Positions 1 to 26,367 of a DNA stretch of 26,367 bases are shown in pieces. This stretch comes from a virus: the IMG/VR virus record IMGVR_UViG_3300007346_000185, positions 1-26,367 of that record, one strand, 5' to 3'. A program made the position numbers and the translations under genes. Within the stretch, counting starts at the first letter, position 1. Every line of letters starts with the position of its first letter. Under the pieces are notes generated by a model that saw nothing but the letters and a program-made list of their open reading frames with translations, made no database searches and was not told the origin of the DNA.

Positions 1-1397
1 CAGGTGGAGATAGAAACAAGTATCTTTATTTGGCGTGTGTACTGTCAGAAGGTGAAATAGATAGCATTGAAACAGTATTTTTAGATGATGTAGATATACT
101 AGATGAAAGATTCAAAGACAGATACAAAATAGAAAGATTTACAGGTGCCGCAAATCAATCAGCAAGTACACTATTAAAAGAAGCAAGTGATTGGACAGAT
201 GATCATAGATTAAGAGGTTTGGCTTATGTTGCTCTTAGATTAGAATGGCGTAAGATTGAATCAATTGAAGACAGTGATGCTAATCCATATCAAGGTGTAC
301 CAAGAGTAACTGCTATTGTAAAAGGTAAAAAAGTAAAAGATTGTACAGGCTTAACAAACAGTCATAGTACAGCATACAATAGTGAAACAGTTACATGGAG
401 TAGTAACCCAGCAGATTGTATTTTAGATTATTTAAGAAATCCAATTTATGGTAAAGGTCTATCAAATGATAGAATTGACTTTACAAGTTTCAGTACAGCA
501 AGAGCCAAGTATGCACAAACAGTAGAATATGCCGCAGGTGGTGGTACAGGACCTGTGTTGACTTGTGATGCTGTTATTGATACAAGCCGTAGTATATTAG
601 ACAACTTAAAAACATTTTTAGCAAATGCTAGAAGTGGTATGCCTTATATACAAGGTAGATTCAAACTAAAATTACAGGATACAGGACATTCAACAGACAG
701 TCAAAATACAACACCAAATGTTGTGTTTGCTGTTACAAGAGATCACATTGTAGGTGGTATAAAATTACAAGCAAATGGTACTAGAGACCATTATAACCAA
801 GTAAAAATAACTTATGTTGATCCTACAAGTGATTGGAAATCAAATGAAGTTATCTATCCAATTTTAGATAGTGCTTTAGATCAAACATTATTAGCAGAAG
901 ACAATGGCAAACGACTAACAAAAGACTTTGCATTCAATCATATTACAAATAGAAATATGGCAGGTGATATTGGTAAAACAATCTTAAATCAAAGTAGAAA
1001 TAAAAAACATATCAGTTTCAGAGCCACAGCAGAATTACATGAAGCAGAAGTAGGTGATATTATAACAGTAACATATGATTTACTAGGCTTTAGCAGTGCT
1101 TATTATAGAATAAGCAGTTTAACACTTAACAATGATTATACAATTGACATCACAGCAACAGAACATACACCAGCAGAATATGTATTTGATGACACACAAG
1201 TAAAATATGGTGAGACCACACAAAGAAAATATGTAGGTGGTTTGACACCAGGTAAATATTATTATTGGGATGGCAGTGAATGGCAAGAAGGTATTGCTCC
1301 ACCACCAACAGCAAATGAACCTAAATTACCAGCACAACCAGTGTTAAGTAAAAATGATTTAAAAATAACAAGTATAACAGTAAGGTCAACTAGTTAG
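1..1397 (+). CDS. Tail-tip (J-type) protein, 5' end missing
   Basis: The reading frame is open from base 3, so the gene is cut by the window edge; the TTG at 30 is only an internal codon. The first residues read GGDRNKYLYLACVLSEGEID, which matches the conserved entry of the J-type tail-tip/central fibre family (the form 'GDxNKYLYLVxALxEGEIxxI' followed by a valued 'DD' loop). Later parts (DCILDYLRNPIYGKGL near residue 140, and the ITATEHTPAEY segment near the end) also fit the hub part of that family. It should form the tail tip that contacts the host and carries the fibres. At about 465 visible residues it is much shorter than lambda J, as if only the hub half is kept and the receptor-binding part is moved to separate fibre genes. 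The N-terminus may be the gene that starts at 26156. Confidence 0.8.
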   Translation, partial: GGDRNKYLYLACVLSEGEIDSIETVFLDDVDILDERFKDRYKIERFTGAANQSASTLLKEASDWTDDHRLRGLAYVALRLEWRKIESIEDSDANPYQGVPRVTAIVKGKKVKDCTGLTNSHSTAYNSETVTWSSNPADCILDYLRNPIYGKGLSNDRIDFTSFSTARAKYAQTVEYAAGGGTGPVLTCDAVIDTSRSILDNLKTFLANARSGMPYIQGRFKLKLQDTGHSTDSQNTTPNVVFAVTRDHIVGGIKLQANGTRDHYNQVKITYVDPTSDWKSNEVIYPILDSALDQTLLAEDNGKRLTKDFAFNHITNRNMAGDIGKTILNQSRNKKHISFRATAELHEAEVGDIITVTYDLLGFSSAYYRISSLTLNNDYTIDITATEHTPAEYVFDDTQVKYGETTQRKYVGGLTPGKYYYWDGSEWQEGIAPPPTANEPKLPAQPVLSKNDLKITSITVRSTS

Positions 1398-1406
1398 GAG
1401 AAAAAT

Positions 1407-1769
1407 ATGGGTGCTATAGCATTACCACTTATTGGTGCCGCTTTTGGTACAAATGTTAAACAACATTTATTAGATATACAGTTTACCATGACTGATAATT
1501 TTAGAGACAATGCAAATATGATTGCAGTACAAGTATACCACCCTATACTTGAACAGTATACTCCTATAGTAAGTGGTCCAGCAAATACATTTCAAAATGT
1601 AAGTGGTACAACATATCTAGTAAGAGCATTCATACCTGCAAGTGGCATACCAACTAATTTTAGATTATTAGCACTTATGGATAATGGAGATCAAATACCT
1701 AGTGCTACATTTAGTTTCACTCCGCCACTAGTTAAAAGTGATAATATACAAATAGGAGGTGCTTTATAA
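1407..1769 (+). CDS. Small tail-tip associated protein, unknown
   Basis: 120 residues, not recognised. An AGGAGA ribosome site directly after the tail-tip stop codon fixes the ATG. The N-terminus (GAIALPLIGAAFGTN) is hydrophobic but lacks a cleavage site or basic start, so it is not a convincing signal peptide. The rest is beta-rich and low in charge, as in virion proteins. It lies between the tail-tip gene and another tail-like protein and ends in a TAATG overlap with the next gene, so a tail-tip accessory or fibre-attachment role is inferred from position only. Confidence 0.6.
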   Translation: MGAIALPLIGAAFGTNVKQHLLDIQFTMTDNFRDNANMIAVQVYHPILEQYTPIVSGPANTFQNVSGTTYLVRAFIPASGIPTNFRLLALMDNGDQIPSATFSFTPPLVKSDNIQIGGAL

Positions 1770-2416
1770 TGGCACTGTATAGTACAAGAACATATGATTG
1801 GCAAGACCTAGCAGATGATAGTGTTACATGGGCTGATTGGACCAATTGGACAGGTAATGGTGTAACTATAAATGGTTCAACAGGATTTGATGATTTAGTT
1901 CATACAACAACAGCACAAGATTTAGGACAAATACAAGATTTCTATCTTACAGCACAAGCAATCAGCAACGGTACAAATGTAATTGCAGTACAAGTAAGTG
2001 ACGATGATCTAAGTTATACAACTGTAAATCCACAAACAAATCCAGAACTTTTAAGAGGCAGATATGTTAAGTTACAAGTAACTGTAACAAACGCATCAGA
2101 AACAGCAAGATTAGATAGTATAACAGGACAAGTACAATTTGACCCACAAAGAGAAACATTTAACCAATTAAGTGTTACAAATAGTGGTACCACACTCCCA
2201 ATTATAAAGGCGTACAGCAGGATTTTGGGTATCACTTATAGCTCAGCACACAAATATCAAATTGTACTAACAGACACAACAGCAACAGCACCAGTAGTAA
2301 CTAGTTATAATTTAGATACTTGGGGCAAAGTAGCAGAAACTTCAACAGCAGATGTAACAGTGATTGGATTTCCCACAATGACCGTAAGTGCTAACGGTGA
2401 CATTGTATTAAGTTAA
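1769..2416 (+). CDS. Probable minor tail protein with carbohydrate-binding-like fold
   Basis: 215 residues, started by a strong AGGAGG site and a TAATG overlap with the gene before. The sequence is rich in Thr, Ser and Asn and predicted beta. The segment GRYVKLQVTVTNASETARLDSITGQVQFD (residues about 92-120) has the look of discoidin/F5-8-like jelly-roll domains, where 'RYVKLQVT' precedes a paired strand. Position after the tail-tip gene and before the fibre supports a virion, host-contact role. The family is not certain; a generic beta-sandwich tail protein is the safe description. Confidence 0.6.
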   Translation: MALYSTRTYDWQDLADDSVTWADWTNWTGNGVTINGSTGFDDLVHTTTAQDLGQIQDFYLTAQAISNGTNVIAVQVSDDDLSYTTVNPQTNPELLRGRYVKLQVTVTNASETARLDSITGQVQFDPQRETFNQLSVTNSGTTLPIIKAYSRILGITYSSAHKYQIVLTDTTATAPVVTSYNLDTWGKVAETSTADVTVIGFPTMTVSANGDIVLS

Positions 2417-2429
2417 GGTAAGTATTATT

Positions 2430-2612
2430 ATGAAGTTAGATGATCAAGTAAAAGAGAATACAAAAAAGATAGAACAAATTAGTATTGATATTGCTCAAAT
2501 TAAAGACAATCATCTACATCATATACAATTAGACATAGACGAATTAAAAGCAAGTTTACGAGAACAAAATGCAACGCTGTTAAAAATATTAACTATACTG
2601 GCGGACAAATAA
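2430..2612 (+). CDS. 60-residue coiled-coil protein
   Basis: MKLDDQVKENTKKIEQISID is followed by further heptads up to the C-terminal LLKILTILADK. Isoleucine and leucine recur every 3-4 residues along almost the whole length, so the protein is probably one long helix that forms a coiled coil. The hydrophobic C-terminal 12 residues could touch a membrane, as in XhlA-type small phage proteins, or be a trimer tip. It sits in the tail/fibre operon, so a fibre-trimerising or connector role is as likely as a lysis-related one. Its ribosome site is weak (AAGG about 11 nt upstream). Confidence 0.6.
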   Translation: MKLDDQVKENTKKIEQISIDIAQIKDNHLHHIQLDIDELKASLREQNATLLKILTILADK

Positions 2613-2613
2613 A

Positions 2614-2808
2614 ATGGCAAGTTATTATGGATCACAATGTAAAACAAATTGTGCAGGACACAGAGCAGGTGCAAGTTATGTAAGACGAGGTGGCAGAAGT
2701 CTTACTAGAAGTAGCAGTAGTTTCAACAATGGTATGAGAATACAACAGAAACGAACCAAGCAAAAAGGTAAAAGAATGCGCCTAAGTATAACAAAGAAAA
2801 GTAAGTAA
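2614..2808 (+). CDS. Small basic Cys-containing protein, probable virion component
   Basis: 64 residues, starting one base after the previous stop codon. It begins MASYYGSQCKTNCAGHRAGA and continues with an arginine-rich stretch and SSSSFNNGMR. Short proteins with this layout (Cys-x3-Cys-x-GHRAG, RRGG, SFNNGM) occur, from memory, among structural genes of marine phages; I cannot name the family. The C-terminal third is strongly basic (KRTKQKGKRMRLSITKKSK), which suggests nucleic-acid or polyanion binding. It forms a run with the even smaller basic gene that follows. Confidence 0.55.
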   Translation: MASYYGSQCKTNCAGHRAGASYVRRGGRSLTRSSSSFNNGMRIQQKRTKQKGKRMRLSITKKSK

Positions 2809-2821
2809 TGGAGATCGTGAT

Positions 2822-2920
2822 ATGAGTTGGCACACTAAAAAGAAAAAAACAACAACAAAAGGCTATTCAAAAAAGCCTGCTATGAAAAAGAAAAAAACAA
2901 GTTACAATAGGAAAAAATAA
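2822..2920 (+). CDS. 32-residue lysine-rich peptide
   Basis: ATG at 2822 with GGAG about 8 nt upstream and a stop codon that overlaps the start of the tail fibre (TAATG at 2918-2922). The product (MSWHTKKKKTTTKGYSKKPA, then more lysines) is nearly half lysine and has no acidic residue. Tight coupling to the genes on both sides and the good ribosome site argue that it is translated. Possible roles are a DNA-condensing peptide or a short virion protein; coupling for fibre translation is another option. Function unknown. Confidence 0.5.
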   Translation: MSWHTKKKKTTTKGYSKKPAMKKKKTSYNRKK

Positions 2921-4263: not shown

Positions 4264-4285
4264 ATAACATAAAGGATAAAAATAT

Positions 4286-4714
4286 ATGCCAGCATTCCCA
4301 AATACAACAGTACTAAGCACGGCTAATTTAGATGAAACAACAGACAGTCCAGCAAGTGCTAGAGCTGATTTAAAAGATACTGTAGACGCAGTACAAGAAA
4401 TTATTGACAGTTATGACAGTGCTAGTGGTATCGCCGCTCTAAATAGTAGTGGTGTACTATCAAATACAAAATTACCTGATACAATTATTAGTAGCAGTGG
4501 TAATAACCTAACACTAGACCCAAATACCAGTATGGTTAAAATACAGGACTTCGTAAATATAAATCCTGTAGCACACGCAAGTTTACCAGCAAGTCCCGTA
4601 AAAGGTGATGTTGCATTTTTAACCACAGACAGTTTAGCAGGGGCACAAAATAGACTAGTATACTATGACGGCTCAGGCTGGAAATATGTTGCTGATGACA
4701 GCGCCGTTGCTTAA
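4286..4714 (+). CDS. Fibre-associated short protein A
   Basis: 142 residues with a good AAAGGA site. Its N-terminus has LDETTDSPASARADLKDTVD followed by a helix ending in IIDSYD; the gene at 12213 has LDQSTDDPNEARPQIKQNIE and IIDNFA at the same place, so the two are paralogous at their N-termini. The C-terminal part (PASPVKGDVAFLTTDSLAGAQNRLVYYDGSGWKYVADD) resembles the small domain at the ends of many phage fibres that shows a new 'YYDGSGWKYV' strand. Each copy follows directly behind a fibre gene, so it probably assembles with that fibre. Confidence 0.65.
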   Translation: MPAFPNTTVLSTANLDETTDSPASARADLKDTVDAVQEIIDSYDSASGIAALNSSGVLSNTKLPDTIISSSGNNLTLDPNTSMVKIQDFVNINPVAHASLPASPVKGDVAFLTTDSLAGAQNRLVYYDGSGWKYVADDSAVA

Positions 4715-4791: not shown

Positions 4792-4808
4792 TCATATATT
4801 TCAAAAAA

Positions 4809-4978: not shown

Positions 4979-5031
4979 GACTTTTTTTAAAAAACCCAAT
5001 AAAAACAAGGCTTTTTTGCCCATATAAAAGG

Positions 5032-5059: not shown

Positions 5060-5095
5060 AATAATATAAGTTAACAAAACAAAGGAGTATAAAAG

Positions 5096-5320: not shown

Positions 5321-5323
5321 TGG

Positions 5324-5387: not shown

Positions 5388-6398
5388 ATGTCAAATATAT
5401 ATGTAGGAACAAGAGCATCTTTCAATGAAATGATTGATTTGCTTGATAATAGAAGTGTTAGGCGTCTAAATCAAGGTGCGTGTAAACACTTAAGAAAAGC
5501 CGCTAACTCAGTTGGTATCAAACAAACTGAGCAAGGTAAAAGACTTGAATTCTATAGTGTCACTCAAGACGAATATGATGATTACTTTGAAAAGTCAGCT
5601 CAATTAATTGCTACACTTAAAAGTGATGGATCTGTAAGACCATTAATTAAGATGTATGAATCTGACCTAAGCAAAATATTTGATACTGTCAATAGTAAAG
5701 ACAAGTACAAAGGTGGTATGGATTACAAAACCGCTAGCGAGTATAAAGAAGAACTAGTCAAAGAAATGTGTAAAAAGATTGAAAGGATTGGTGACGATCT
5801 TAATACTCGTAAGAAAGTGGATAAGGTACCAGAGAATCCATATAAAGTTGGTGATATTATTGGTAGCCACACACATCCATATGGTTGGTATCATAATGAA
5901 AATGTTATGGTAAAGAAAGACGACAAATGGACAGTAACGAAGTTACCTAAAGATACTTTATTTGGTAGACATAGAGTAATAAAGGCAGGTAAGAAGTTTA
6001 TTGAAGTTGAAGCTCTATGTTGTAGTAGAAACCCTTTCTTTTCTAATACTGTTAATGCTATGAATTCTTTTCATAGTGTAGTTGCTCAATTCTTTGGCAT
6101 GGACAAACAAGAAGGCAAGTCATATGCTAATGATGATTGGTTCAACAATCAGGATCCTCATGCTCACTTTATTGAAGAAAGTGCTAACAAAGATAACCCT
6201 TTATGGCATAGGTACTTTGAATGGAAACCTATTTTGTCTAATGTATGGGGACAAGAAGGCAAGCCACAAAAGTTTCAATGGACTAAATTTGCTGATGTAG
6301 ATTATAAAACAGGAGAATATACATCTTTAGTATTAGATCCAAATAACCCAAATCACAAGGTTGGTTACTTGTACAAATATGATGGATGTTATAACTAA
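5388..6398 (+). CDS. Unknown 336-residue protein of accessory operon
   Basis: AAAGGAA site; first gene behind promoter P2. The protein is soluble, lysine-rich in its first half (helical, residues 1-145) and rich in Trp, His and Phe in the second half (IIGSHTHPYGWYHNENVMVK near 155, then HAHFIEESANKDNPLWHRYF near 255). The two-part shape suggests a helical domain followed by a beta domain with aromatic residues. I do not recognise a catalytic motif. It overlaps the next gene by one base (TAATG), so the two are co-translated. Confidence 0.65.
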   Translation: MSNIYVGTRASFNEMIDLLDNRSVRRLNQGACKHLRKAANSVGIKQTEQGKRLEFYSVTQDEYDDYFEKSAQLIATLKSDGSVRPLIKMYESDLSKIFDTVNSKDKYKGGMDYKTASEYKEELVKEMCKKIERIGDDLNTRKKVDKVPENPYKVGDIIGSHTHPYGWYHNENVMVKKDDKWTVTKLPKDTLFGRHRVIKAGKKFIEVEALCCSRNPFFSNTVNAMNSFHSVVAQFFGMDKQEGKSYANDDWFNNQDPHAHFIEESANKDNPLWHRYFEWKPILSNVWGQEGKPQKFQWTKFADVDYKTGEYTSLVLDPNNPNHKVGYLYKYDGCYN

Positions 6399-6751: not shown

Positions 6752-6764
6752 ATTCAGAAAATGC

Positions 6765-6814: not shown

Positions 6815-6886
6815 ATGGCACAAGGTATGATTAAATTAACAATTAACAAATGGAGACAAATATGTCAAAAAACTCAGATATTTTAA
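6815..6886 (+). CDS. Possible 23-residue leader peptide
   Basis: ATG at 6815 after AGGGG, reading MAQGMIKLTINKWRQICQKT then QIF and stop. It overlaps the ribosome site and the first 25 nt of the gene at 6862 in another frame, so ribosomes on it would open or block that start. No amino acid is enriched enough to suggest attenuation. Real translation is uncertain. Confidence 0.3.
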   Translation: MAQGMIKLTINKWRQICQKTQIF

Positions 6887-7329
6887 AAGAAATGAAAGAT
6901 AGACAACAGGGAGAAACTGTTGACTATCGTCCAAAACAAGTATGGCCTATTCAAGATTCTGACGGTAAAGTTAGAACTATGGAAGATGACCACGCACACT
7001 ATATGAAATATTTTCACAGTAAAGAAAGAGAAGAATTTCTAAACTCTATAAACGATGGTAGTGATTTTGATGCTGAAAAATTAAAAGCAGAAAACCACGA
7101 AAGACAAAAAAATCATAACATAGAGGATATAATTGATTTCGTTGTTCATGACTTCTATATGAAAATTAGAGGTATATATGAAAACAATGAAAATTATAGT
7201 ATATTTTCTGCAATTGAAGATGCATATGGTTTAATTATATGTAACAATTATGCAAGTTACCCAGCAAATATTCTAGATTCACTAGAATATCGCGAATATG
7301 CACTTAAAAACAAAAAGGAGATGAACTAA
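6862..7329 (+). CDS. Unknown acidic protein, 155 residues
   Basis: I take ATG 6862 (MSKNSDILKEMKDRQQGETV) rather than 6850, because GGAG at 6852-6855 lies 6 nt before it and overlaps the earlier ATG. The protein is hydrophilic with many Glu, Asp, His and Tyr, no membrane segment and no motif that I can name; the middle (NHERQKNHNIEDIIDFVVHD) is helical. It is first in a two-gene operon, with AAGGAG near its end serving the next gene and a one-base overlap. Confidence 0.6.
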   Translation: MSKNSDILKEMKDRQQGETVDYRPKQVWPIQDSDGKVRTMEDDHAHYMKYFHSKEREEFLNSINDGSDFDAEKLKAENHERQKNHNIEDIIDFVVHDFYMKIRGIYENNENYSIFSAIEDAYGLIICNNYASYPANILDSLEYREYALKNKKEMN

Positions 7330-7784
7330 TGACATTTCTTTTAAAATACAAAAAGAAACATGAAATGCCTCGTCGCGATGGTGTAAAGTATGCGACCGTA
7401 TATTTACAAGGTGTTCAAAACAAAAAAGATTTAATTGAACACATCAATCGTGCTTATGATGATGTAGTGTATCTTACAGACAATGTAAAAGATACAGCCG
7501 CTATCAGAGAAATGCTAACTGAAGGTATGAAGTTTGGCGGTAGACGAGATCGTAAGAATGTACATAGTCAAAGAAACAAACTGCCGCTATATAAAAGCCA
7601 TATGGACAACATAAGAGAATTTAAAGAATATGTTGAAGTAGAAAATCCAGATGGTGATATACCTGTTCAAATAGTAGAACGATGGAACAAGGCTTTTGCT
7701 AATTGTCATACAAGGCAAATTATGCCATTAGATGTTTCAGGCGTCCCTAAAGGCAGAAACGATAAGTTTGACGACTTCTTTTAA
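7329..7784 (+). CDS. Unknown basic protein, 151 residues
   Basis: AAGGAG site and TAATG overlap with the gene before. The N-terminal part (MTFLLKYKKKHEMPRRDGVK, then YATVYLQGVQNKKDLIEHIN) looks like a small alpha/beta domain. The middle is very basic (GGRRDRKNVHSQRNKLPLYK), then acidic (REFKEYVEVENPDGDIP), and the C-terminal end is acidic and aromatic (DKFDDFF), a shape seen in DNA-binding accessory proteins such as phage SSB-like or host-takeover factors with acidic tips. This is a suggestion only. Confidence 0.6.
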   Translation: MTFLLKYKKKHEMPRRDGVKYATVYLQGVQNKKDLIEHINRAYDDVVYLTDNVKDTAAIREMLTEGMKFGGRRDRKNVHSQRNKLPLYKSHMDNIREFKEYVEVENPDGDIPVQIVERWNKAFANCHTRQIMPLDVSGVPKGRNDKFDDFF

Positions 7785-8648: not shown

Positions 8649-9860
8649 ATGAAAATACATCACGGTAATAATATTGATATTTTAAAAACATATGATGCCA
8701 ATTCTTTTGACAGCATCATCACTGACCCACCATATGGGATAGAATTTTTAGGTAAAGATTGGGATAAGAATACAGGTGCTGTAGAAACTTGGCAAGAATG
8801 TTTAAGAGTACTAAAACCAGGCGGACATTTATTGGCTTTCTCAGCCGCTAGGACTTATCATAATTTAGCCTCAAACATTGAAAATGTTGGCTTTGAAATA
8901 AGAGATCAATTGATGTGGTTGTATGCTTCAGGTTTCACTAAAGCACAACAAATAAAAGGACAAGAAGGTTGGAAGACTTGTCTTAAACCAGCACACGAAC
9001 CAATTGTAATGGCTCGTAAGCCATTTAAAGGCAGTACATATGCTAATATGGACAAATATGGTGTTGGTGGTTTGAATATTGATGCTACAAGACTTGAATC
9101 AGAACCTTATGAATATTGTGCTGATGTTATAAAAAGAATGACATATTCACAATCAGATCCATCAAAATGGAATGATAGTGATAAACAAATGATTGTAAAT
9201 AACAAAGGCAAATTCCCAATGAATGTATTAGGTGAAGTAGAAGGCTATCAAAAGTATTTCTATTGTCCTAAAGTAAGCAGAGCAGAAAGACATATTGGAT
9301 TCTATACTGAAGATATACCTACAAACCCTGACGCTATGTATGTAAAAGATGAAAATGGTAAATGTGGTGAAAGGTATGAAGCAAGAGTTGAACAAGAAAG
9401 AACAGTACAAGGTGCTTATACACAAACAGGTACACTAAAAAGAATGAAAGACAAAATGTCTTTAAGTGATATGCCAAAACCTTTTCAAGTTAAGCACGGA
9501 TTTGATTATAGAATGCCTAGCAGTAAGAACGAAGATCCTAATGCTCAAATAGGTATAGTAGAAAAAACAAATATTGGTAATAATCACCCCACAGTAAAGC
9601 CTGTTGAATTGATGAAATGGTTAATAAAATTGGTTACACCTAAAAATGGTACTGTATTAGATCCATTTACAGGCAGTGGATCAACAGGTATGGCGTGTGT
9701 TGAATTAAACTATAATTTCGTAGGTTGTGAGATGGATGCCAAGTATGTAGAAATTGCTAAGACCCGTATACAGGGCTGGCAGACGCTGATAGAAAACAAA
9801 AAACCTAAAGAAACTGTTGATAATACATTTGACAGACTATTTGAATATGAAAATCGTTGA
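8649..9860 (+). CDS. DNA amino-methyltransferase (N6-adenine or N4-cytosine)
   Basis: 403 residues. Motif IV DPPYGIEF is at 26-33 and the AdoMet-binding motif I DPFTGSGSTGMA at 338-349, with HPTVKPVELMKWL before it; this order (IV, recognition domain, X, I) is that of the beta class that includes CcrM-like and many restriction-linked enzymes. The reaction is transfer of a methyl group from AdoMet to an exocyclic amino group of DNA. The recognition region is the long stretch between about 100 and 300. No restriction enzyme gene is beside it, so it is an orphan that probably protects phage DNA or alters transcription. Its target is unknown; the absent motifs of this window are worth comparing. 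Strong promoter with operator-like repeat. Confidence 0.9.
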   Translation: MKIHHGNNIDILKTYDANSFDSIITDPPYGIEFLGKDWDKNTGAVETWQECLRVLKPGGHLLAFSAARTYHNLASNIENVGFEIRDQLMWLYASGFTKAQQIKGQEGWKTCLKPAHEPIVMARKPFKGSTYANMDKYGVGGLNIDATRLESEPYEYCADVIKRMTYSQSDPSKWNDSDKQMIVNNKGKFPMNVLGEVEGYQKYFYCPKVSRAERHIGFYTEDIPTNPDAMYVKDENGKCGERYEARVEQERTVQGAYTQTGTLKRMKDKMSLSDMPKPFQVKHGFDYRMPSSKNEDPNAQIGIVEKTNIGNNHPTVKPVELMKWLIKLVTPKNGTVLDPFTGSGSTGMACVELNYNFVGCEMDAKYVEIAKTRIQGWQTLIENKKPKETVDNTFDRLFEYENR

Positions 9861-10386: not shown

Positions 10387-10698
10387 ATAATATTGTTGGT
10401 AAGGGTTGATCCTTAAGTATTGTTTGACTCCGTAGTTAATAAAACTTTAGGCCATTTGATTATGCTCCTACATATTAAATCCCGCAAACAATCCGTACCA
10501 ATTTTGCAAGTTAAGTGTTTCGCTAGGTTCATTTAATTTGCCCAACCTACAAGTTCTACTTTTAGGTATTTGCATAACAGCAAAAAAACCTAGCATCTTA
10601 TCAAAACAGACAGTAACTCATTCTGAGTTATTTTCAGACATTTGATATTTCCTTTTATATGAGTAAAGATAGGTCCTTAGGGGCCTATCTTTTTTTTT
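10381..10698 (+). ncRNA. Structured non-coding RNA candidate 2 (about 300 nt)
   Basis: No frame and many compatible helices. Outer stem TTGGTA/TACCAA (10396-10401 with 10496-10501); inside it an AAGG/CCTT hairpin and the 8-bp ATTGTTTG/CAAACAAT (10419-10426 with 10485-10492). Next the 8-bp GCTAGGTT/AACCTAGC (10522-10529 with 10587-10594) that encloses ACCTA/TAGGT (10545-10549 with 10563-10567), then TAACTCA/TGAGTTA (10614-10620 with 10624-10630), and last the terminator. It begins with the same 14 nt as the RNA at 4809. No match to tRNA, tmRNA or RNase P features. It may be a free RNA or a leader of the second fibre operon, though a terminator lies between. Confidence 0.6.
10666..10698 (+). 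terminator. Rho-independent terminator
   Basis: 11-bp stem AAGATAGGTCC/GGGCCTATCTT (10666-10676 with 10681-10691, one T-G pair), TTAG loop and T-run to 10698. It separates the accessory region and its RNA from the second fibre operon. Confidence 0.92.
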
Positions 10699-10751
10699 GA
10701 ATAGATAAATAACTATGTTATAACAGTACAATCCTTTAAAGGACAATTAAA

Positions 10752-14616: not shown

Positions 14617-15033
14617 ATGAGTGATACCCAATCACCAAAAGAAGAAAAGAACAAAGGTGGCAGACCAAAAGTTCACAACTTTGATTATGAACAAATAACT
14701 CGTTTAGGCGAGTTAATGTGTACCAAACAAGAAATAGCTCATGTATTGGGCTGTAATGTAAGTACAATAAAGCGTGATCAAAAGGCATTAGAAGCAATTG
14801 AAACAGGATACAGTTTAGGTAAACTAAAACTTCGTCGTGCTATGATGCGTAATGCTTGTGAAAATATGAATGCGGCAGTACAAATTTTCTTATCAAAAAA
14901 TCTGTTGGGCTACAGCGACAACGGACAATTAGACGGAGAAGCAAGTCAACCGCTACCATGGAATGAAGCACCACAAGAGGAAGTAAAAGAAGAAAATGCA
15001 ACTGACGAAAATGCAACAACAGATAGCCAATGA
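14617..15033 (+). CDS. terS: Terminase small subunit
   Basis: 138 residues, GGGAGAAGGGG site. A helix-turn-helix (ITRLGELMCTKQEIAHVLGC, then NVSTIKRDQKALE, about 25-60) follows a basic GGRPKVHNF start, and an oligomerising helix comes next (LGKLKLRRAMMRNACENMNA). The acidic tail (EEVKEENATDENATTDSQ) is common in these DNA-binding subunits. It recognises the packaging site and hands the DNA to the large subunit, whose gene overlaps it. Confidence 0.8.
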   Translation: MSDTQSPKEEKNKGGRPKVHNFDYEQITRLGELMCTKQEIAHVLGCNVSTIKRDQKALEAIETGYSLGKLKLRRAMMRNACENMNAAVQIFLSKNLLGYSDNGQLDGEASQPLPWNEAPQEEVKEENATDENATTDSQ

Positions 15034-16231
15034 TACTAATCGCTGGCGCATTGTTGTGGCTGGTAGAAGAGGTGGCAAAAGCCATAGTGCGTTAAGAGAG
15101 ATGTGCTATTTTGCTAGACAGCCAAACAAAGTTATATACTATGTTGCACCCACATATAGAATGTGTAAAGCAATTATGTGGGACAAGTTAAAAGATCAGT
15201 TACACGCACTTCGCTGGATTAAAAAAGTAAATGAAACAGAACTTACAATTAGGCTAGTGAACAATAGTAAAATTGTTCTCGCTGGTGCAGATGGCGGAGG
15301 CGACCGCCTAAGAGGAATTTTTTGCGACCTAGTCGTGTTTGATGAATTTGCTGATATGGAGCCTGAAGTATGGACTGTAATGAGACCAGCTCTAGCAGAC
15401 AGAGGCGGACACGCGATGTGGTTAGGTACTCCAAAAGGTAAGAATCATTTCTATGATTTATTTCAATGGGCTCAAGCACAGGATGGTTGGAGTACATATA
15501 AGTTTACAAGTTTAGAAGGCGGCATTATCCCTGAAGAAGAAATAGAAGCCGCTAAACAAGAAATGGATGAAAGAAGTTTCAAACAAGAATTTTTAGCAGA
15601 CTGGGTAGACTATGTTGGATTGGTATATTATGCTTTTTCAGAACTGTGTGTGGCAAAGCACGAATTGAAAAATAATATGCAAGAAATATATGTGGGGATT
15701 GACTTCAATGTGGACCCAGGCTGTGCTGTCGTTGGTACCATGACTGCTGAAAACGGTCTCCACATTTTTGATGAAATAGAATTAAGAAATACAAATACAT
15801 TTGAAATGGCAGAAGAAATAAGACGAAGATATCCAAATAAAATTATAAAAATATTCCCTGATCCTGCAGGTTCACAAAGAAGAACTAGTAGCACAACAAC
15901 AGATCATAAAATATTACATAATGCAGGCTTTCAAGTGTTTGCTCGTAGAGCTCACCCTGCCGTAAAAGATAGAATTAACAGTGTTAATAGTGCATTCAGC
16001 CATAGCAAGTTACTGATAGATCCTAAATGTAAAAGTTTAAGAAATTGTTTGAACAAGTTATCCTACCGTGAGGGTACTAATGATCCAGACAAAAATAGTG
16101 GCTATGATCATATGACAGATGCACTTGGCTATATGGTAGAATACTTGATGCCAATTACAAAAACAATAACACCACGGGTAGAACCAGCACGATGGGCCAT
16201 AAATGCTCCAGCAGTGCGTAAATTTGGGTAA
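14996..16231 (+). CDS. terL: Terminase large subunit (ATPase/nuclease)
   Basis: 411 residues. Walker A is VAGRRGGKS (21-29), Walker B LVVFDE (112-117), with a WLGTPKGKNHFYDLF motif-III-like segment after it. The nuclease domain has GIDFNVDPG (Asp236) and HMTDALGY (Asp375), the usual acidic residues of the RNase H-fold nuclease. It packs DNA into the prohead. Starts inside the small-subunit gene (38-nt overlap); ATG 15011 is the alternative start. Confidence 0.92.
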   Translation: MQLTKMQQQIANDTNRWRIVVAGRRGGKSHSALREMCYFARQPNKVIYYVAPTYRMCKAIMWDKLKDQLHALRWIKKVNETELTIRLVNNSKIVLAGADGGGDRLRGIFCDLVVFDEFADMEPEVWTVMRPALADRGGHAMWLGTPKGKNHFYDLFQWAQAQDGWSTYKFTSLEGGIIPEEEIEAAKQEMDERSFKQEFLADWVDYVGLVYYAFSELCVAKHELKNNMQEIYVGIDFNVDPGCAVVGTMTAENGLHIFDEIELRNTNTFEMAEEIRRRYPNKIIKIFPDPAGSQRRTSSTTTDHKILHNAGFQVFARRAHPAVKDRINSVNSAFSHSKLLIDPKCKSLRNCLNKLSYREGTNDPDKNSGYDHMTDALGYMVEYLMPITKTITPRVEPARWAINAPAVRKFG

Positions 16232-16248: not shown

Positions 16249-17724
16249 ATGATGTATACAAAAGAAACATTAGACCAAGTCCATCCTGAATATGTGGCTA
16301 ATATAGCTCGCTGGAGATTATATGCAGATTCATACCAAGGTGGCGCGGCGTACAGAAATGGTGAGTACTTATTTAAGTACCATTTAGAAACAGGTGGCGA
16401 ATACAGCCAAAGACTAGATGAAACGCCTTTAGAAAACCATTGCAGAAGAACTATTGACAGTTATAGTAGTTTCATATATGGATCAACAATTGAAAGAAAT
16501 TATGGATCAATTGAAAACAATCCAAACCTAGAACCATTTTTAAAAGATGCAGATATGGACGGCAGAGATTTTGAAGCCTTTATCGCAAGTGCATCAAAAC
16601 AAGCGGCGATATATGGTGCAGTTTATATTTTCGTAGATAAGCCCACTAACAACGCAGGTACTAGAGCAGAAGAACTAGGACAAGGTATTAGACCTTATCT
16701 AGCAATGGTATCACCAGAGAATGTAATTGATTGGCATTATGAAAGACAATCAAACGGCGCAATGATAATGACTTATCTAAAAGTCTTAATAGAAAAAACA
16801 CAAGATACAAAAACTTATAAAATATACACACCTGAAGAAACAATTACAGCAATTTCAAGTTTAGAAAGTGATTTAGTTTCTATTGTAGATCAAGTACCAA
16901 ACCCATTAGGTGAAATACCATGTGTTGTACTATACAATAATAGATCATGGACACACGGAATTGGCATCAGTGATATTGCTGATGTGGCTGACATACAAAG
17001 AAGTATATACAGTGACTATTCTGAAATAAATCAATTGATTAAACTTTCAAATCATCCCACACTCTGTAAAACGAATAGTGTAGATGCTAGTGCAGGTTCT
17101 GGCGCGATTGTATCTATGCCTGAAGATTTGGATGCGGGACTAAAACCCTACCTATTATCGCCTAGTGGACAAAATATAACCACACTGTTAGAAACAATTA
17201 ATCGCAAAGTAGAGGCTATTGAAAAAATGACACACTTAGATAGCGTAAGTGGTCAAAGAACAGCACGAAGCGGTGTTGCTATGCTTATAGAACAAAAAGC
17301 ACTAGCAAGTACCTTAAGCGGTAAGGCACAACTGTTGCAACTAGCAGAAGAACAAATATGGCGTCTATGGTGTCTTTGGGAAGGCACGGCTTGGGATGGT
17401 GAAATATACTATCCTGATTCATTTGATACAAGGGACAGACAACAAGACTTAATGAACCTTAAGTTAGCACAAGAAATTGGTGTTACTGATCCAATGTTGA
17501 AAAAATATGTGCAGATGTCAATTGCAAGTGCTATTGTAGATGATGAAGATGCATTACAACAAATTAATGATTCAATTATGAGTGATGAATTCGTACCTCA
17601 CACGATGTATGATGCTCAAGGCAACGAATATCAAGTAAACAGTCAAGAAGACCATGAAAGATATGAAGCATTAGGCTACACTCACGAACAAATGGTGAGT
17701 GATGACAACAGCAACGAGGAATAG
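16249..17724 (+). CDS. Portal protein
   Basis: 491 residues; TAAGG lies 6 nt before ATG 16249. The opening region (HPEYVANIARWRLYADSYQG and GEYLFKYHLETGGEYSQRLD, then ETPLENHCRRTIDSYSSFIY) and the middle (QVPNPLGEIPCVVLYNNRSW; ADVADIQRSIYSDYSEINQL) fit portal proteins of the group often listed as DUF4055. The helix SVSGQRTARSGVAMLIEQKA lies in the stem region. It forms the dodecameric ring to which terminase docks. The gene sits where a portal is expected, between terminase and scaffold. Confidence 0.85.
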   Translation: MMYTKETLDQVHPEYVANIARWRLYADSYQGGAAYRNGEYLFKYHLETGGEYSQRLDETPLENHCRRTIDSYSSFIYGSTIERNYGSIENNPNLEPFLKDADMDGRDFEAFIASASKQAAIYGAVYIFVDKPTNNAGTRAEELGQGIRPYLAMVSPENVIDWHYERQSNGAMIMTYLKVLIEKTQDTKTYKIYTPEETITAISSLESDLVSIVDQVPNPLGEIPCVVLYNNRSWTHGIGISDIADVADIQRSIYSDYSEINQLIKLSNHPTLCKTNSVDASAGSGAIVSMPEDLDAGLKPYLLSPSGQNITTLLETINRKVEAIEKMTHLDSVSGQRTARSGVAMLIEQKALASTLSGKAQLLQLAEEQIWRLWCLWEGTAWDGEIYYPDSFDTRDRQQDLMNLKLAQEIGVTDPMLKKYVQMSIASAIVDDEDALQQINDSIMSDEFVPHTMYDAQGNEYQVNSQEDHERYEALGYTHEQMVSDDNSNEE

Positions 17725-19107: not shown

Positions 19108-19968
19108 ATGGCAAACGAAAATTATATTAACGCTATGGTCACTAACTATGATGCAACGGTATTACCCGTAAAAAGTGCGACAATTTTTGCCGCACACGAG
19201 AATTCGTTGTTCTTAGGTGGTGAGTTAATCCCTGTAGTAAATGCACCAAATGGTATTCTACAGGTACCAGAAATCGCAAAAGATGTTGATGTAGATGTAA
19301 TCACAGGTGCGGCACCAGGTAGTGCTGACATTGAAACTGAACTACCAACATTCACAAAAAATACAATCCAAGCAGACTTATTCGCGGCTCGCTCAGTAGT
19401 TCGTGATTTAGGTGCTATTGATCCTACAGAAGTAGGTAGAGCACTAGGTATGGCTGTTGCGGCTAAATTTGACGCACAGGTAATGAATGTGCTTGGTGAC
19501 TTAACAGCAATTGAGGCTGATGACACAGCAGGTAAAGGTGTACTAACAGTTTCTGATATCGCAGACGCAGTAGCGGCGATCAGAGGATCTGGAGATACAT
19601 CACCTCTAATGGGTGTAATCGCTCATACTGAATATGCTTCATTAATGAACGACATTGGATCAACAGCATTCGCTGGTGGTGATTTATTTCAAGGTCAAGC
19701 ATTAAGAAGTGGCTTCTTTGGTAATATCCTAGGTGTACAATTATTTGTCACATCATACATGACAGATGCTAACACAGGTGTAACAAACCCAATGGCGGCT
19801 ATTTTCTCTAAAGACGCAATGAGAATTGCTATGCAGAAAAATGTTGACTTAGAAATCGCTCGTAGAGCGGCGGCTGTAGGTAATGATGTTGTAGCAAGTC
19901 TACACGCGAAATGTGGTCTTATTGACGCGGCTCGTGGTAGAATCTTAATCAACGCGGCAGGTGCCTAA
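19108..19968 (+). CDS. Major capsid protein (HK97 fold)
   Basis: 286 residues, strong AAAGGAG site. Features of HK97-fold capsids are visible: an N-terminal arm, VPVKSATIFAAHENSLFLGG-like start region, QADLFAARSVVRDLGAIDPT followed by EVGRALGMAVAAKFDAQVMN (spine helix), a VIAHTEYASLMNDIGSTAFA segment (P domain), NILGVQLFVTSYMTDANTG and the C-terminal DLEIARRAAAVGNDVVASLH. No delta-domain extension, in line with the separate scaffold. A hairpin follows the gene. Confidence 0.88.
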   Translation: MANENYINAMVTNYDATVLPVKSATIFAAHENSLFLGGELIPVVNAPNGILQVPEIAKDVDVDVITGAAPGSADIETELPTFTKNTIQADLFAARSVVRDLGAIDPTEVGRALGMAVAAKFDAQVMNVLGDLTAIEADDTAGKGVLTVSDIADAVAAIRGSGDTSPLMGVIAHTEYASLMNDIGSTAFAGGDLFQGQALRSGFFGNILGVQLFVTSYMTDANTGVTNPMAAIFSKDAMRIAMQKNVDLEIARRAAAVGNDVVASLHAKCGLIDAARGRILINAAGA

Positions 19969-21521: not shown

Positions 21522-21526
21522 TAATA

Positions 21527-21868: not shown

Positions 21869-22230
21869 CATTAGCAAGTAAAAATCCAGTAATTGCGAAA
21901 GCAGTAGAACATTTCAAAAGTCGTAATGATGTAGAAATGAATTCAATTGAAGTACCTGAATGGGATACTACAATTTATTATAAGAATGTAAGTACATTTG
22001 CTGATCAAAGCAAAGTAATGACCTTACATCAACAAGGTAAAGTCGTTGAAGCTCTAGTAGAAACAATTATTACTAAAGCAAGAACACAAGACGGCAAAAA
22101 AATGTTTCAACCCGCAGAAAGAACATACTTATTGAACGAATGTGATCCTGAAGTGTTATTGAAAATCGCAACAACACTAAACAGTACATCATCTCAAGAG
22201 TATGATGTGGATGAAACTGTAAAAAACTAA
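21865..22230 (+). CDS. Tail assembly chaperone, short form (gpG-like)
   Basis: 121 residues, ending VDETVKN. Order (tube - head-tail protein - this - tape measure) and the -1 frameshift at its end identify it as the G-type chaperone, which binds the tape measure until the tube forms. The N-terminal part (HFKSRNDVEMNSIEVPEWDT, then TIYYKNVSTFADQSKVM) resembles chaperones of marine siphophages. Confidence 0.78.
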   Translation: MTLASKNPVIAKAVEHFKSRNDVEMNSIEVPEWDTTIYYKNVSTFADQSKVMTLHQQGKVVEALVETIITKARTQDGKKMFQPAERTYLLNECDPEVLLKIATTLNSTSSQEYDVDETVKN

Positions 22231-22400
22231 GAAACGATCCAGACCTATTAATTCTGTGTAGACTGGGTCGTGAATTAAACAAGTCACTTGAAGAAGTGAG
22301 CCAAATGACAACAGCAGAAGTGTTTATTTGGTTAGCATACTTTAAGTTAGAAGCAGAGAGTCAGAGGAAAGCATATGGCAGAACAAACCGTAAAACTTAA
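21865..22400 (+). CDS. Tail assembly chaperone, frameshifted long form (gpGT-like)
   Basis: Reading slips back by one base at A-AAA-AAC (22221-22227) after codon 121 and continues as LRNDPDLLILCRLGRELNKS, then LEEVSQMTTAEVFIWLAYFK, LEAESQRKAYGRTNRKT to TAA 22398-22400, 178 residues in all. The extension carries the 'EEVxxMTxxExxxWxAYFxLE' pattern known from T-type domains, and has no start codon of its own with a ribosome site. As in lambda, a fixed ratio of short to long form is needed for tail assembly. The end overlaps the tape measure start by 26 nt. Confidence 0.82.
22221..22271 (+). promoter_or_regulatory. -1 ribosomal frameshift signal
   Basis: Slippery heptamer A-AAA-AAC (22221-22227) directly before the zero-frame TAA, a 6-nt spacer, then a 9-bp stem ACGATCCAG/CTGGGTCGT (22234-22242 with 22263-22271, one T-G pair) with a 20-nt loop. 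All three parts of a classic -1 site are present. Confidence 0.85.
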
Positions 22401-24519
22401 ACTAGATACTAGTCAATTTGATGCAGGTATAAAAAGAGTACAAGGCGGATTTGGTAATCTTACAAGTGTCATTGCTGGAGCGGCGGCGGCATTTGGAGGA
22501 TTTCAAGTCGCAAAAGGATTTTTAAATACAGCAAAAAGTATTGAAAATCTAAAATTTCAATTAGCCGCACTGACAGGATCAACAACTGAAGCCGCAAAGG
22601 CTATGGACATACTTGTTGATTTTGCAGGTGGCGTACCTTTTCAATTAGAACAAATACAAAGAGCGGCCCCAAGTCTATTAGCAGTAGCAAAAAGCACAGA
22701 TGAATTAAATGAACTATTAGCCATTACAGGTGATATCGCCGCGGCTAGTGGTATTGATTTTGAAACAACAGCATTACAATTACAAAGAACATTCTCAGCA
22801 GGTATAGGTGCGGCGGATCTATTTAGAGATAGAGCCGTTAAGAGTATGCTAGGCTTTCAAGAAGGCGTACAGTATTCAGCAGAAGAATCAAAAAACTTAA
22901 TTATCAATGGATTTAGAGATGGTACAATAGCCATAGCAGGTTCAAGTGCCAAAATGGCAACAACCTTTGATGGTGTGATCTCTATGATCCAAGATAAATT
23001 CATGAAGTTTCAATTGGCTGTTATGGATGCGGCACCATTTGAATCTATAAAAGCCGCGGCTACTTTAATGGAGCAAGCCTTAGAAAAGAATTTTGGATCA
23101 ATTGAAAAAGCAGGTGCTAGAATTGGTCAAGCATTGGTTGACACAACTAAACAAGTATTAATTGGTAGTGCTAAAATTATGGATGCACTAACACCTGTAT
23201 TTGAAATAGTTAAAAAAGGTATTAATGGACTTATAAAATTCATAAATCAACTGCCACCTGAAATGCAAATATTAGGTGCAATAGGATTCTTTTTAGTAGG
23301 TAGAGGTGTTAAACTTATATTATTGGCTGTAGCGGCATTCTTTGATCAAATCAAAGGCTTTATGGATAATATGGTCAAAAAATTTGCAGAAGGGATCAAT
23401 GATTTAATTGCAATAGCCAATAAGATCCCAGGCATTGAAATGGATCCAATTAAAGTAGGTGATAAAGAATTTAGCAGTTATGTAGATGAAGTTAATAAAA
23501 AGTTCGTAGACTTTATTGGTGAAGCCACAGGTGAAATAAAAGAAATAGCATTTGAAATTACAGGCTTAGACCCAGACGAAATGGGCAAATATGAAAAAGG
23601 CATTCGTAAAATTATAAATGCTATTGATGATCAAATAGTAAAAACAAAAGAATTAGAAAAAGCACAAGAAGGTACTGGAGCAGGACCAACAAGTAAAGCA
23701 CCACCAGTAGATAAAAAATTAGAAGCACAATTAAAGAAACAACAAGAAGCATTACAAAAACAACTTAAACAGTTAGACGAAAGTTTAATGACTGAAACTG
23801 AAAGAGAAAATTTTGAATACAATAAAAAACTAGCAATTCTAGATGAGTATTATAAAGGCAGAACACAATTTGATACTGAATACATGAAGTTAAGAGAAAG
23901 ACTAGAAACAAAACATCAACAGGCTCTTAAGAGAATACAAGATAATGAATATAAAGAACAGTTAGATTTATTTAAATCAGGACAATTTGCACAATTAGAT
24001 TTAGGCTCTTTCACACAGGATCAACTTAAGAAATTTACAATTGATACAGGTAAAGAAGTATTAGGCGCACTAGCACAACAAAACAAAAAAGCATTTCAGA
24101 TAGCAAAAGCATTTAATATTGCAATGGCGATTATGAATACAGCACAAGGTGTTACTAGAGCCCTTACATTACCATTCCCATTCAACCTAGCAATAGCAGG
24201 ATTGATTGGAGCGGCAGGTGCCGTACAAATAGCCGCTATTGCAAGTCAACAGTACCAAGGTAAGAAAGCAGGTGGTCTAGTACAAAAAGGTACTCCATAC
24301 ATTGTAGGTGAAAGTGGACCTGAAATGTTTATGCCAAACCAATCAGGTACTATCATACCAAATAGAAATTTAGATGGCGCTAAAAATGTAAATGTTACAT
24401 TTAACATTAATGCCTTAGATGCTAGAGGTGTTGATGAATTAATTGTAGAACGCAAAGGTTTAATAACAAACATAATTAGAGAAGCCGCTAATCAACGCGG
24501 TGAAAGGAGTCCAGTATAA
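22375..24519 (+). CDS. Tape measure protein
   Basis: 714 residues. N-terminal VKLKLDTSQFDAGIKRVQGG, a hydrophobic helix (VIAGAAAAFGGFQVAKGF), two membrane-like stretches (about 300-325 and 600-625), a charged coiled coil (LKKQQEALQKQLKQLDESLM) from about 450 to 540, and the C-terminal KAGGLVQKGTPYIVGESGPE, then MFMPNQSGTIIPN that closes many tape measures. At about 0.15 nm per residue it suggests a tail near 100 nm, in the siphovirus range. No lysozyme or peptidase domain is visible. Confidence 0.88.
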   Translation: MAEQTVKLKLDTSQFDAGIKRVQGGFGNLTSVIAGAAAAFGGFQVAKGFLNTAKSIENLKFQLAALTGSTTEAAKAMDILVDFAGGVPFQLEQIQRAAPSLLAVAKSTDELNELLAITGDIAAASGIDFETTALQLQRTFSAGIGAADLFRDRAVKSMLGFQEGVQYSAEESKNLIINGFRDGTIAIAGSSAKMATTFDGVISMIQDKFMKFQLAVMDAAPFESIKAAATLMEQALEKNFGSIEKAGARIGQALVDTTKQVLIGSAKIMDALTPVFEIVKKGINGLIKFINQLPPEMQILGAIGFFLVGRGVKLILLAVAAFFDQIKGFMDNMVKKFAEGINDLIAIANKIPGIEMDPIKVGDKEFSSYVDEVNKKFVDFIGEATGEIKEIAFEITGLDPDEMGKYEKGIRKIINAIDDQIVKTKELEKAQEGTGAGPTSKAPPVDKKLEAQLKKQQEALQKQLKQLDESLMTETERENFEYNKKLAILDEYYKGRTQFDTEYMKLRERLETKHQQALKRIQDNEYKEQLDLFKSGQFAQLDLGSFTQDQLKKFTIDTGKEVLGALAQQNKKAFQIAKAFNIAMAIMNTAQGVTRALTLPFPFNLAIAGLIGAAGAVQIAAIASQQYQGKKAGGLVQKGTPYIVGESGPEMFMPNQSGTIIPNRNLDGAKNVNVTFNINALDARGVDELIVERKGLITNIIREAANQRGERSPV

Positions 24520-25130
24520 TGAGTGCAGGTGGTACATTACCAGATAACCCTAAATTTAGAGAAGTATCTATCAAAAGTGTAAACCCAAGTATAGTAACGC
24601 TGGCAAGTAGTGGTAGAAAACAAGTAAAAACACAAAACGCACAATTTTGGAGTTTCACAGCAACTTATCCACCAATGAAAAGAAGTGAATGGGCACCAAT
24701 AGCCGCATTTATTCAACAGCAAAGAGGCAGTAGATGGGATTTTGATATAAAAATAGAACCATACAGTAACACACAAGGTAATTTAACAACAGAGACAGTT
24801 ACAGTAAATGGGGCTCATGATGCAGGAGACACTAGCGTGGCCCTTAGCAGTGGGTCTTTGACGCAAACAGATAGTTTAAAAGCAGGAGACTTCGTAAGTT
24901 TCGCACCTTATCAAACTAAAGTGTATATGGTTACAGCAGATGTAGACTTTAGCAGTGGTTCAGCAACAATGAACATTGAACCAGGCCTACAAGCAAGCCT
25001 GTCAGGTGGTGAAGGACTAATTTACAACAATGTAACTTGGAAAGTATTTTTAGTAGAACAGGATCAAGAATGGACATTTAGTCTAGGCGATATGGTAGGC
25101 TATGAAGTGCAATTTAGAGAGGCACTGTAA
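24519..25130 (+). CDS. Minor tail protein (distal-tail type)
   Basis: 203 residues, AAAGGAG site and TAATG junction. QFWSFTATYPPMKRSEWAPI followed by AAFIQQQRGSRWDFDI is a signature of tail proteins that follow the tape measure in marine siphophages; the rest is a beta domain with an inserted loop (ETVTVNGAHDAGDTSVALSS). It should sit at the tape-measure end, as the distal tail or gpM/L-type ring. Confidence 0.7.
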   Translation: MSAGGTLPDNPKFREVSIKSVNPSIVTLASSGRKQVKTQNAQFWSFTATYPPMKRSEWAPIAAFIQQQRGSRWDFDIKIEPYSNTQGNLTTETVTVNGAHDAGDTSVALSSGSLTQTDSLKAGDFVSFAPYQTKVYMVTADVDFSSGSATMNIEPGLQASLSGGEGLIYNNVTWKVFLVEQDQEWTFSLGDMVGYEVQFREAL

Positions 25131-25705
25131 TGGCAAGAGGACTAGGTTCAACTATAACAACGGAACTTTCAAGAAACCGTTTAAGATTCGCAGACTTATT
25201 AGAACTGCATTTTGAATCACCTAATGATTTATATCTTACAAATGGACCACTAGACATAACTGTAAATACAGATACAAGTACAGGCAAAACATTCGCCGCA
25301 AATGGAGAATTATTGACTTTTGATTCTATTCAAGAAACAGGACAAGCAAGAGTCAATCAAATTAATTTTGCACTATCAGGTGCAAGTAACACAATCACAA
25401 ATTTATTTTTAAACAACAACTATGTAGATAGACGCATTGTAATCTATAGATATTTTTTCAATGAACAAAGCGTTGCAATAGGTACTCCTGTTATGTTATT
25501 TGATGGGGAAATGACTTCTTTTCAAATTAATGAAACAGGATCCAGTTCAACGGTAAATGTAACTAGTTCAAGTGTATTCTATGATTTTGATAGAATCAAT
25601 GGTAGAAGAACAAACAGTACTAGTCAGCAAACATATTATCCGTTTGATAAAGGTATGGATTTTTCAAGTGCCGTAGACGATAGAATCAAGTGGGGTAAGC
25701 CGTAA
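25130..25705 (+). CDS. Minor tail protein (gpL/DUF2163-like)
   Basis: 191 residues. FADLLELHFESPNDLYLTNG, then PLDITVN, LLTFDSIQETGQARVNQINF, LNNNYVDRRIVIYRYFF and VMLFDGEMTSFQINETGSSS follow the order of hub proteins such as lambda L or the DUF2163 group ('LxLxF...xxxyxxxG...Y...L.sI......s....F.LSG....l...l.......V.v....'). It links the distal tail to the tail tip. TAATG junctions on both sides. Confidence 0.72.
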   Translation: MARGLGSTITTELSRNRLRFADLLELHFESPNDLYLTNGPLDITVNTDTSTGKTFAANGELLTFDSIQETGQARVNQINFALSGASNTITNLFLNNNYVDRRIVIYRYFFNEQSVAIGTPVMLFDGEMTSFQINETGSSSTVNVTSSSVFYDFDRINGRRTNSTSQQTYYPFDKGMDFSSAVDDRIKWGKP

Positions 25706-26172
25706 TGATACAAAAGATGACAGTAAATGATATAAGAGTATGTGTAGAACTAGCAGAAAAATATCATAAAGAACATTGGTTTGGTAAACATACAAAATAT
25801 GATGCAGATTATATTTTTGCAAACTTTAGACAGTTTATAGTAAATCCAATGGTGAATATGCTAGTAGCATATGATGATAACAAAAATATAGTAGGCTTCA
25901 GTGTATGCTTTATGCAACCTTTACTATGGTCAAAACAATTAAGAGCAACTATAAATTTTAGTTACTTAGAACCTGATCATAGAAAGTCAGGTAAATTTAA
26001 CGCAATGGTACAAAGCCATATTGAATGGGCAAAACAAAATAATTGTGTAGATATAAACATTGGCGATGGTGCTGAACACAATGGTAAGTTTGGTATTCTC
26101 GCTAGACAAATGAATTTTGACAATGTAGGCACGGATGCTTATATGGTATTGAATTATGATAAAAAAGATTAA
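25705..26172 (+). CDS. GNAT-type acetyltransferase-like protein
   Basis: 155 residues. The central block INFSYLEPDHRKSGKFNAMV, then QSHIEWAKQNNCVDINIG has the GNAT order: strand beta4 (MVNMLVAYDDNKNIVGFSVC), strand beta5 with 'YLxPDHRxxGxxxxMV' (loop RKSGKF in place of Q/RxxGxG/A, so the acetyl-CoA loop is shortened or altered), helix alpha3, and the end VGTDAYMVL. It should transfer an acyl group if active; the weak loop leaves this open. Its place among tail genes suggests modification of a virion protein, or a purely structural role. Confidence 0.7.
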   Translation: MIQKMTVNDIRVCVELAEKYHKEHWFGKHTKYDADYIFANFRQFIVNPMVNMLVAYDDNKNIVGFSVCFMQPLLWSKQLRATINFSYLEPDHRKSGKFNAMVQSHIEWAKQNNCVDINIGDGAEHNGKFGILARQMNFDNVGTDAYMVLNYDKKD

Positions 26173-26367
26173 ATTATTTTTAATAGCCTTTTTAGGTACT
26201 GCTTTAATTAGCACACCAGCATGGGCTGGACCAGTAGTAATTGTTGGTGCTGTTATTGGTGGTGCTGTAGGTGCCGCGGCGGCGGCGGCAGGATTGATAA
26301 GTGCAACTATCTTTACAGGAGCACTAATTGGAGCCGCTGTAGGTGGTGTAGCAGGAGCACTAGCACC
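26156..26367 (+). CDS. Glycine-rich secreted protein or tail-tip N-terminus, 3' end missing
   Basis: ATG 26156 overlaps the end of the acetyltransferase by 17 nt; the frame is open to the window edge (70 codons and two bases). MIKKIKLFLIAFLGTALIST, then PAWA is a signal peptide with AWA cleavage; the next 45 residues are a glycine/alanine zipper (VIGGAVGAAAAAAGLISATI, GALIGAAVGGVAGAL). Tail-tip proteins of related phages often open in this way before reaching the 'GDxNKYLYL' block, so this and the gene at 1 may be one gene. The alternative is a short separate membrane protein. Confidence 0.6.
   Translation, partial: MIKKIKLFLIAFLGTALISTPAWAGPVVIVGAVIGGAVGAAAAAAGLISATIFTGALIGAAVGGVAGALA

Follow-up and report, generated by a model that had tools for sequence, protein, structure and literature searches.

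Palindromes and one-strand words missing from the genome of an aquatic siphophage

Double-stranded DNA phages avoid type II restriction sites, as Sharp in 1986 and Rocha et al. in 2001 reportedly found; the enzyme BbvI recognises GCAGC. In the survey by Rusinov et al. 2018, short palindromes are wholly or nearly removed from virulent double-stranded DNA phages, GCWGC is among the words listed and is reduced in roughly two thirds of the phage genomes for which it is relevant, and, over prokaryotic viruses, no systematic strand-asymmetric avoidance was found for type I and type III sites (PMC6286503). GCWGC methylation occurs in aquatic bacteria, where M.AbaBS3I, an enzyme of a Chloroflexi bacterium in Lake Biwa, makes DNA resistant to TseI (PMC6329791). 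Phage T7 evades the type III enzyme EcoP15I by having all 36 of its CAGCAG sites in one orientation (PMC3874151), and our recount of this control gives 0:36. Pelagiphages are depleted in GANTC, a word methylated in their hosts (PMC9516812).

Here, we analysed the full stretch of IMGVR_UViG_3300007346_000185, positions 1-26367 (26,367 nt), which we refer to as the window. The window contains double-stranded DNA tailed-phage genes, approximately 38 in number and all on the + strand (Table 1), and is a nearly complete map of an aquatic siphophage: its ends, 26367 and 1, are bridged by ~161 nt in the conspecific contigs L014/L093, L015 and L092 and, therefore, the genome maps as a circle of ~26.5 kb. 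Contigs of the same species from other samples are 99.1-99.8% identical to the window, and the window terminase shares at most 42% identity with that of named phages, e.g. Pelagibacter phage HTVC112P. The window has no tRNA genes, and the scanned window proteins include none recognisable as a polymerase or primase. Three orphan proteins (5388-6395, 6850-7326 and 7329-7781) have no family match and no relative among the loci gathered; for the first of these, with 336 aa, the structure model is unusable (pLDDT 38).

Table 1. Genes and word losses in the window.
Feature	Position	Strand	Remark
DNA methyltransferase, phage-encoded, predicted	8649..9860	+	PF01555 N6_N4_Mtase
Terminase large subunit	14996..16231	+	Basis of the family tree
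Portal protein	16249..17724	+	Query that found relatives L100, L101 and L278
Major capsid protein	19108..19968	+	Query for relatives
Tape measure protein	22375..24519	+	Query for relatives
GCWGC, YCGR, ACGT, HAGCTD, HGCGCD, RCATGY: zero on both strands	1..26367	.	Counts compared with null models
GTTTT, TACG, TTTGTD, CAATAY, TTTTAY: zero or single	1..26367	+	Complements AAAAC, CGTA, HACAAA, RTATTG, RTAAAA at expectation
Sole + strand TACG	2557..2560	+	Common to conspecific contigs L092 and L093
TTCCTTTTAT, sole TTCCD and sole TTTTAY of the + strand	10649..10658	+	Common to L003 and L010

GCWGC is missing from the window: neither GCAGC nor GCTGC occurs in its 26,367 bases, in agreement with the initial annotation, in which the word appeared to be entirely absent. 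Four null models, two of which preserve the proteins, give expectations between 30 and 51 copies, i.e. 30 by a second-order Markov model, 32.9 (sd 5.6) by dinucleotide shuffles, 51 (34.7 + 16.7) by synonymous-codon shuffles of all genes, and 39.1 (sd 3.4; minimum 28 in 100 runs) by the strictest null, a junction-context shuffle in which protein, codon usage and codon-junction context are kept. The loss is specific to the word. GCTG has 59 copies and none is followed by C, much as annotated (about 60), and the control word GCSGC has 67 copies in the window, with a threefold excess in coding DNA (58 versus 20 expected in the junction-context shuffle), confirming that GCCGC and GCGGC are tolerated. 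The Ala-Ala pairs number 62, more than the roughly fifty first estimated, and begin exclusively with GCC (25) or GCG (37) and never with GCA or GCT, as had been described; where no alanine follows, GCA (345) and GCT (175) are indeed the commonest alanine codons compared to GCC (43) and GCG (35).

The rarity of GCWGC could in principle reflect mutation bias or codon usage rather than selection, given that the genome is AT-rich (36% GC) and has strong codon preferences. However, at three levels of shuffling none of the four null models comes near zero; codon-preserving shuffles, for which a near-zero outcome had been named as the result that would overturn the original interpretation, predict 51 and 39.1 copies, and with junctions also preserved every run yields at least 28. 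Moreover, GCSGC is in excess, and relatives with a composition like that of the window, e.g. L042-L047, have normal GCWGC. We therefore reject composition and codon usage as the cause and regard this explanation as having a negligible probability. An assembly artefact was likewise rejected because the loss also holds in the contigs L003, L010, L013, L014, L015 and L092 from other samples. In the conspecific contig IMGVR_UViG_3300034418_001156, there is one GCWGC, which overlaps a single HAGCTD.

The initial annotation had proposed that one exact 5-bp palindrome is avoided. This single-palindrome account does not hold: at least five other palindromes are purged alongside GCWGC, and in addition words are lost from one strand only. 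In a scan for zero words that covered all degenerate 6-mers, the following palindromic words are also at zero: YCGR, i.e. TCGA, CCGG and CCGA/TCGG (71-97 expected under the Markov or codon null and 49 under the strictest null), ACGT (31-53 expected), HAGCTD (51-73), HGCGCD (8-28) and RCATGY (11-43). For HGCGCD and RCATGY, the case for complete loss is based on low numbers, since the strictest null predicts 8-11 copies. For GCWGC, YCGR, ACGT and HAGCTD, the ratio of observed to expected copies is below 0.1 with more than 15 copies expected, and the palindrome loss persists under the null that preserves codons and context. Few zero words are left once palindromes and one-strand words are set aside. 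In 20 shuffled genomes, the best score reaches at most 4.7 for symmetric and 7.8 for asymmetric words, compared to 64.8 and 32.1, respectively, in the real genome. All 12 remaining AGCT and all 11 remaining GCGC have a G before or a C after the palindrome. This flank rule, by which only sites with neither a preceding G nor a following C are cleared, is valid for GCGC and for AGCT in the clade of the window; as a general rule for all palindromes it fails across the phage family and was discarded. Weaker depletion is seen for YGGCCR (1/11, observed/expected) and TGGCCA (0/7), and GGAA/TTCC is depleted on both strands (HGGAA, 29/79). The window differs from the type II avoidance surveyed in that a small genome has lost six or more palindromes together, with flank rules applying to some of them (HAGCTD, HGCGCD), and in that the set shifts between sister lineages. 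Also unlike in pelagiphages, GANTC is not depleted in the window (42 versus 43.5 expected), and the likeness to those phages is that of an aquatic phage devoid of a word that is methylated in its hosts, presumably so in this case.

Among relatives (127 non-redundant loci, 1.5 Mb), 90 are testable for GCWGC at a threshold of at least 12 expected copies. In 27 of the 90, GCWGC is exactly zero (0 observed versus 699 expected) and GCSGC is at 919 versus 331 expected; in many other relatives GCWGC is normal. Among 5-bp palindromes the runner-up, AAWTT, has 7 zero loci, and no other comes near the 27 of GCWGC. The number of zero-count loci is 33 for AGCT, 38 for GTAC, 35 for TCGA, 23 for ACGT, 8 for GATC and 7 for AATT, and in other relatives the same loss behaviour is seen for AGCT, GTAC, TCGA, ACGT, AATT, GATC, CTAG and GGNCC/CCNGG. 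On a terminase tree with 107 tips, at least 12 changes of the GCWGC trait are needed compared to 19.6 for shuffled labels and, therefore, the trait persists through descent for some time before a loss or gain. In the nearest lineages, GCWGC is at 0/16 (L022), 0/10 (L100) and 0/12 (L278) observed/expected copies; these three share with the window the loss of GCWGC, HAGCTD and HGCGCD and differ from it in ACGT and YCGR. The loss of GCWGC is accordingly all-or-none among relatives and subject to turnover. Separately, eight loci (L053, L059, L064, L065, L068, L080, L081 and L086) lack the trinucleotides ACG/CGT or CGA/TCG, or nearly all CpG, and in these loci words of only 2-3 bases seem to be purged.

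Type II restriction predicts a loss of short palindromes that is all-or-none and word by word, through synonymous substitution and with turnover, and earlier surveys describe such loss (PMC6286503). Therefore, we suggest with good confidence that the losses of GCWGC and of the other palindromes represent avoidance of type II restriction sites. Restriction enzymes with these specificities, acting at 4-6 bp palindromes, would be the cause. In this scenario, type II enzymes of the hosts met by the lineage would select against GCWGC because every unmethylated site would lower survival at phage entry, and synonymous changes from GCA or GCT to GCC or GCG before a G would be fixed until no GCWGC remains. 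YCGR, ACGT, HAGCTD, HGCGCD and RCATGY would be cleared likewise, independently and combinatorially, and the same process would have cleared sister lineages of other palindromes. The specificities of TseI and M.AbaBS3I (GCWGC) and of BbvI (GCAGC) fit the missing word; BbvI-type and TseI-type specificities leave the same footprint. The proposal that GCWGC avoidance is a mark of type II restriction stands as far as the loss is word-specific, survives the codon controls and is all-or-none among relatives, and falls short over the one-strand losses, which would not be expected from ordinary type II restriction. Alternatively, the palindromes could be avoided through a CRISPR-type or other non-restriction defence that does not act by cleavage at unmodified sites, and one study is said to tie motif depletion in phages to CRISPR PAMs. 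Depletion of PAMs would, however, neither centre on 4-6 bp palindromes nor be complete, and the purged words have the palindromic form that type II enzymes recognise, making this alternative highly improbable.

Approximately eleven specificities are many for one host, which argues against the restriction reading; the footprint sums the hosts met over time and need not describe one host. It is plausible that the footprint is informative on the immune system of the hosts. Neither a host, by prophage searches, nor a cognate restriction-modification pair for GCWGC was found: a capsid profile search of the species-genome collection detected no prophage with a related capsid, and a terminase profile search gave only distant matches in bacterial contigs (29-48% identity) from many phyla. 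The phage itself encodes a predicted DNA methyltransferase with homologues in L175, L176, L044 and L046; its DPPYG motif precedes its FTGSGS motif and, therefore, it has the beta-class order. This methyltransferase might shield palindromes that are not avoided in the window, e.g. GATC, GTAC and CTAG.

The second set of losses concerns asymmetric words. Five words are missing, or nearly so, from the + strand and their complements are near expectation: GTTTT is at 0/32 observed/expected copies (AAAAC, 78/81), TACG at 1/39 (CGTA, 66/61), TTTGTD at 0/16 (HACAAA, 128/101), CAATAY at 0/16 (RTATTG, 35/33) and TTTTAY at 1/26 (RTAAAA, 74/71). Under the strictest null, the expectations for the five words are 22, 17, 15, 16 and 14, respectively. 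Two further candidates are weak: YCTTG, with 0 copies on the + strand versus 7.5-15 expected, because only 7.5 are expected under the strictest null, and TTCCD because its complement is depleted too (29/79). The exceptional site TTCCTTTTAT is non-coding and lies directly ahead of a terminator-like hairpin (10665-10692). It is part of a 365-nt non-coding stretch (10387-10751) that also contains 2 of 14 GGCC, with the sites just before or in the hairpin.

Relatives at 75-78% identity are without the one-strand losses of the window, and in a 5.6 kb alignment to L022 (76.9% identity) the window retains 0 of 48 lost-word sites compared to 39 of 107 complement sites. Therefore, the one-strand loss is recent. 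Other relatives have one-strand losses of their own: CCAC is at 0/27 on the coding strand of G002 (L157) and at 4/53 in G003 (L158, L159), with GTGG at expectation, and TTCYA and TTGGA are lost in L190, TTTCA in L250 and TCAGT in L048. Of 14 cases, 13 have lost the less frequent orientation.

An enzyme acting at lone sites is blind to orientation on double-stranded DNA and, therefore, something must break the symmetry. The reading that we favour, and to which we give an even chance, is orientation-dependent restriction of the type III or ISP kind. Type III and ISP enzymes require two facing sites, such that clearing one orientation would suffice for escape. In a second, younger layer, about five asymmetric words would have been removed from the + strand only, and clearing the rarer orientation each time would be the cheapest escape. 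The 13 of 14 count gives this reading no more than moderate support because the lost words are pyrimidine-leaning and the + strand is purine-rich. Against this reading stands the survey result of no systematic strand asymmetry at type I and type III sites (PMC6286503). Like CAGCAG in T7, each word is missing on one strand and reaches or exceeds its expected number on the other; unlike in T7 with its single word, at least five words of 4-6 bp are involved, DNA and mRNA strands are confounded, and the enzyme is a presumed one.

The confounding arises because all genes are on the + strand and, therefore, DNA orientation and mRNA sense coincide for the one-strand words. Alternatively, then, these words could be purged owing to their recognition in mRNA, with sequence-specific endoribonucleases such as MazF-like toxins, or some other RNA-level defence, cutting transcripts that contain GUUUU, UACG, UUUGU and the other words. 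Many endoribonuclease toxins read words of 3-7 nt, the strand cleared of these words is the one with mRNA sense, and neither the window nor the relatives with such losses have believable minus-strand genes. However, the loss is near-complete, with at most one copy per word, as for the palindromes, and at the RNA level a lone additional site within any of the ~38 genes would be expected to carry little cost. Loss of the rarer orientation in 13 of 14 cases is not predicted either, unless the enzymes prefer pyrimidine-rich RNA, and non-coding DNA is equally asymmetric (AAAAC 12, GTTTT 0), though it is possibly transcribed. Overall, we consider cleavage of mRNA unlikely, though worth keeping in mind. 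The relatives L190, L250 and L160 were tried as a means to separate DNA from RNA effects and set aside, given that the minus ORFs in these first two loci, L190 and L250, resemble antisense ORFs over plus-strand genes; the other contigs tried have almost no minus ORFs. In a broader form, the words would be recognised in sense-strand RNA by a host defence, or selected against at some other strand-polar step (DNA entry or replication, for instance), with restriction-like stringency and with several host-carried specificities; this, too, we hold to be rather unlikely. We know of no phage genome purged by an RNA-reading or strand-polar defence.

It could also be argued that the phage has its own sequence-specific nucleases to degrade host DNA and that its genome is free of their sites instead of being methylated. 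Annotations of the related phage DSL-LC06 include HNH endonucleases and a PacI-like restriction endonuclease; in this genome (L090, 7322-8109) the PacI-like gene adjoins an HNH endonuclease. However, searches of the uncharacterised window proteins with Pfam, PHROGs, PADLOC and NCBIfam returned no nuclease family, approximately eleven specificities exceed the coding room, and a nuclease acting at lone sites would not spare one orientation. We consider this possibility very improbable.

In total, the GCWGC loss adds a further clear example of an established strategy, and the multi-word one-strand loss, for which we do not claim priority, extends the T7/EcoP15I phenomenon beyond its single-motif precedent. 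The joint losses of palindromes and one-strand words resemble an imprint of several simultaneous bacterial restriction systems. The strand layer weighs more than the GCWGC loss, T7 with EcoP15I being the textbook case, and at least five one-strand words in one genome make it testable whether orientation-dependent restriction or RNA-level defence is strong on natural phages. This phage family provides an unusually clean record, lineage by lineage, of a changing list of restriction specificities escaped in uncultured aquatic hosts.
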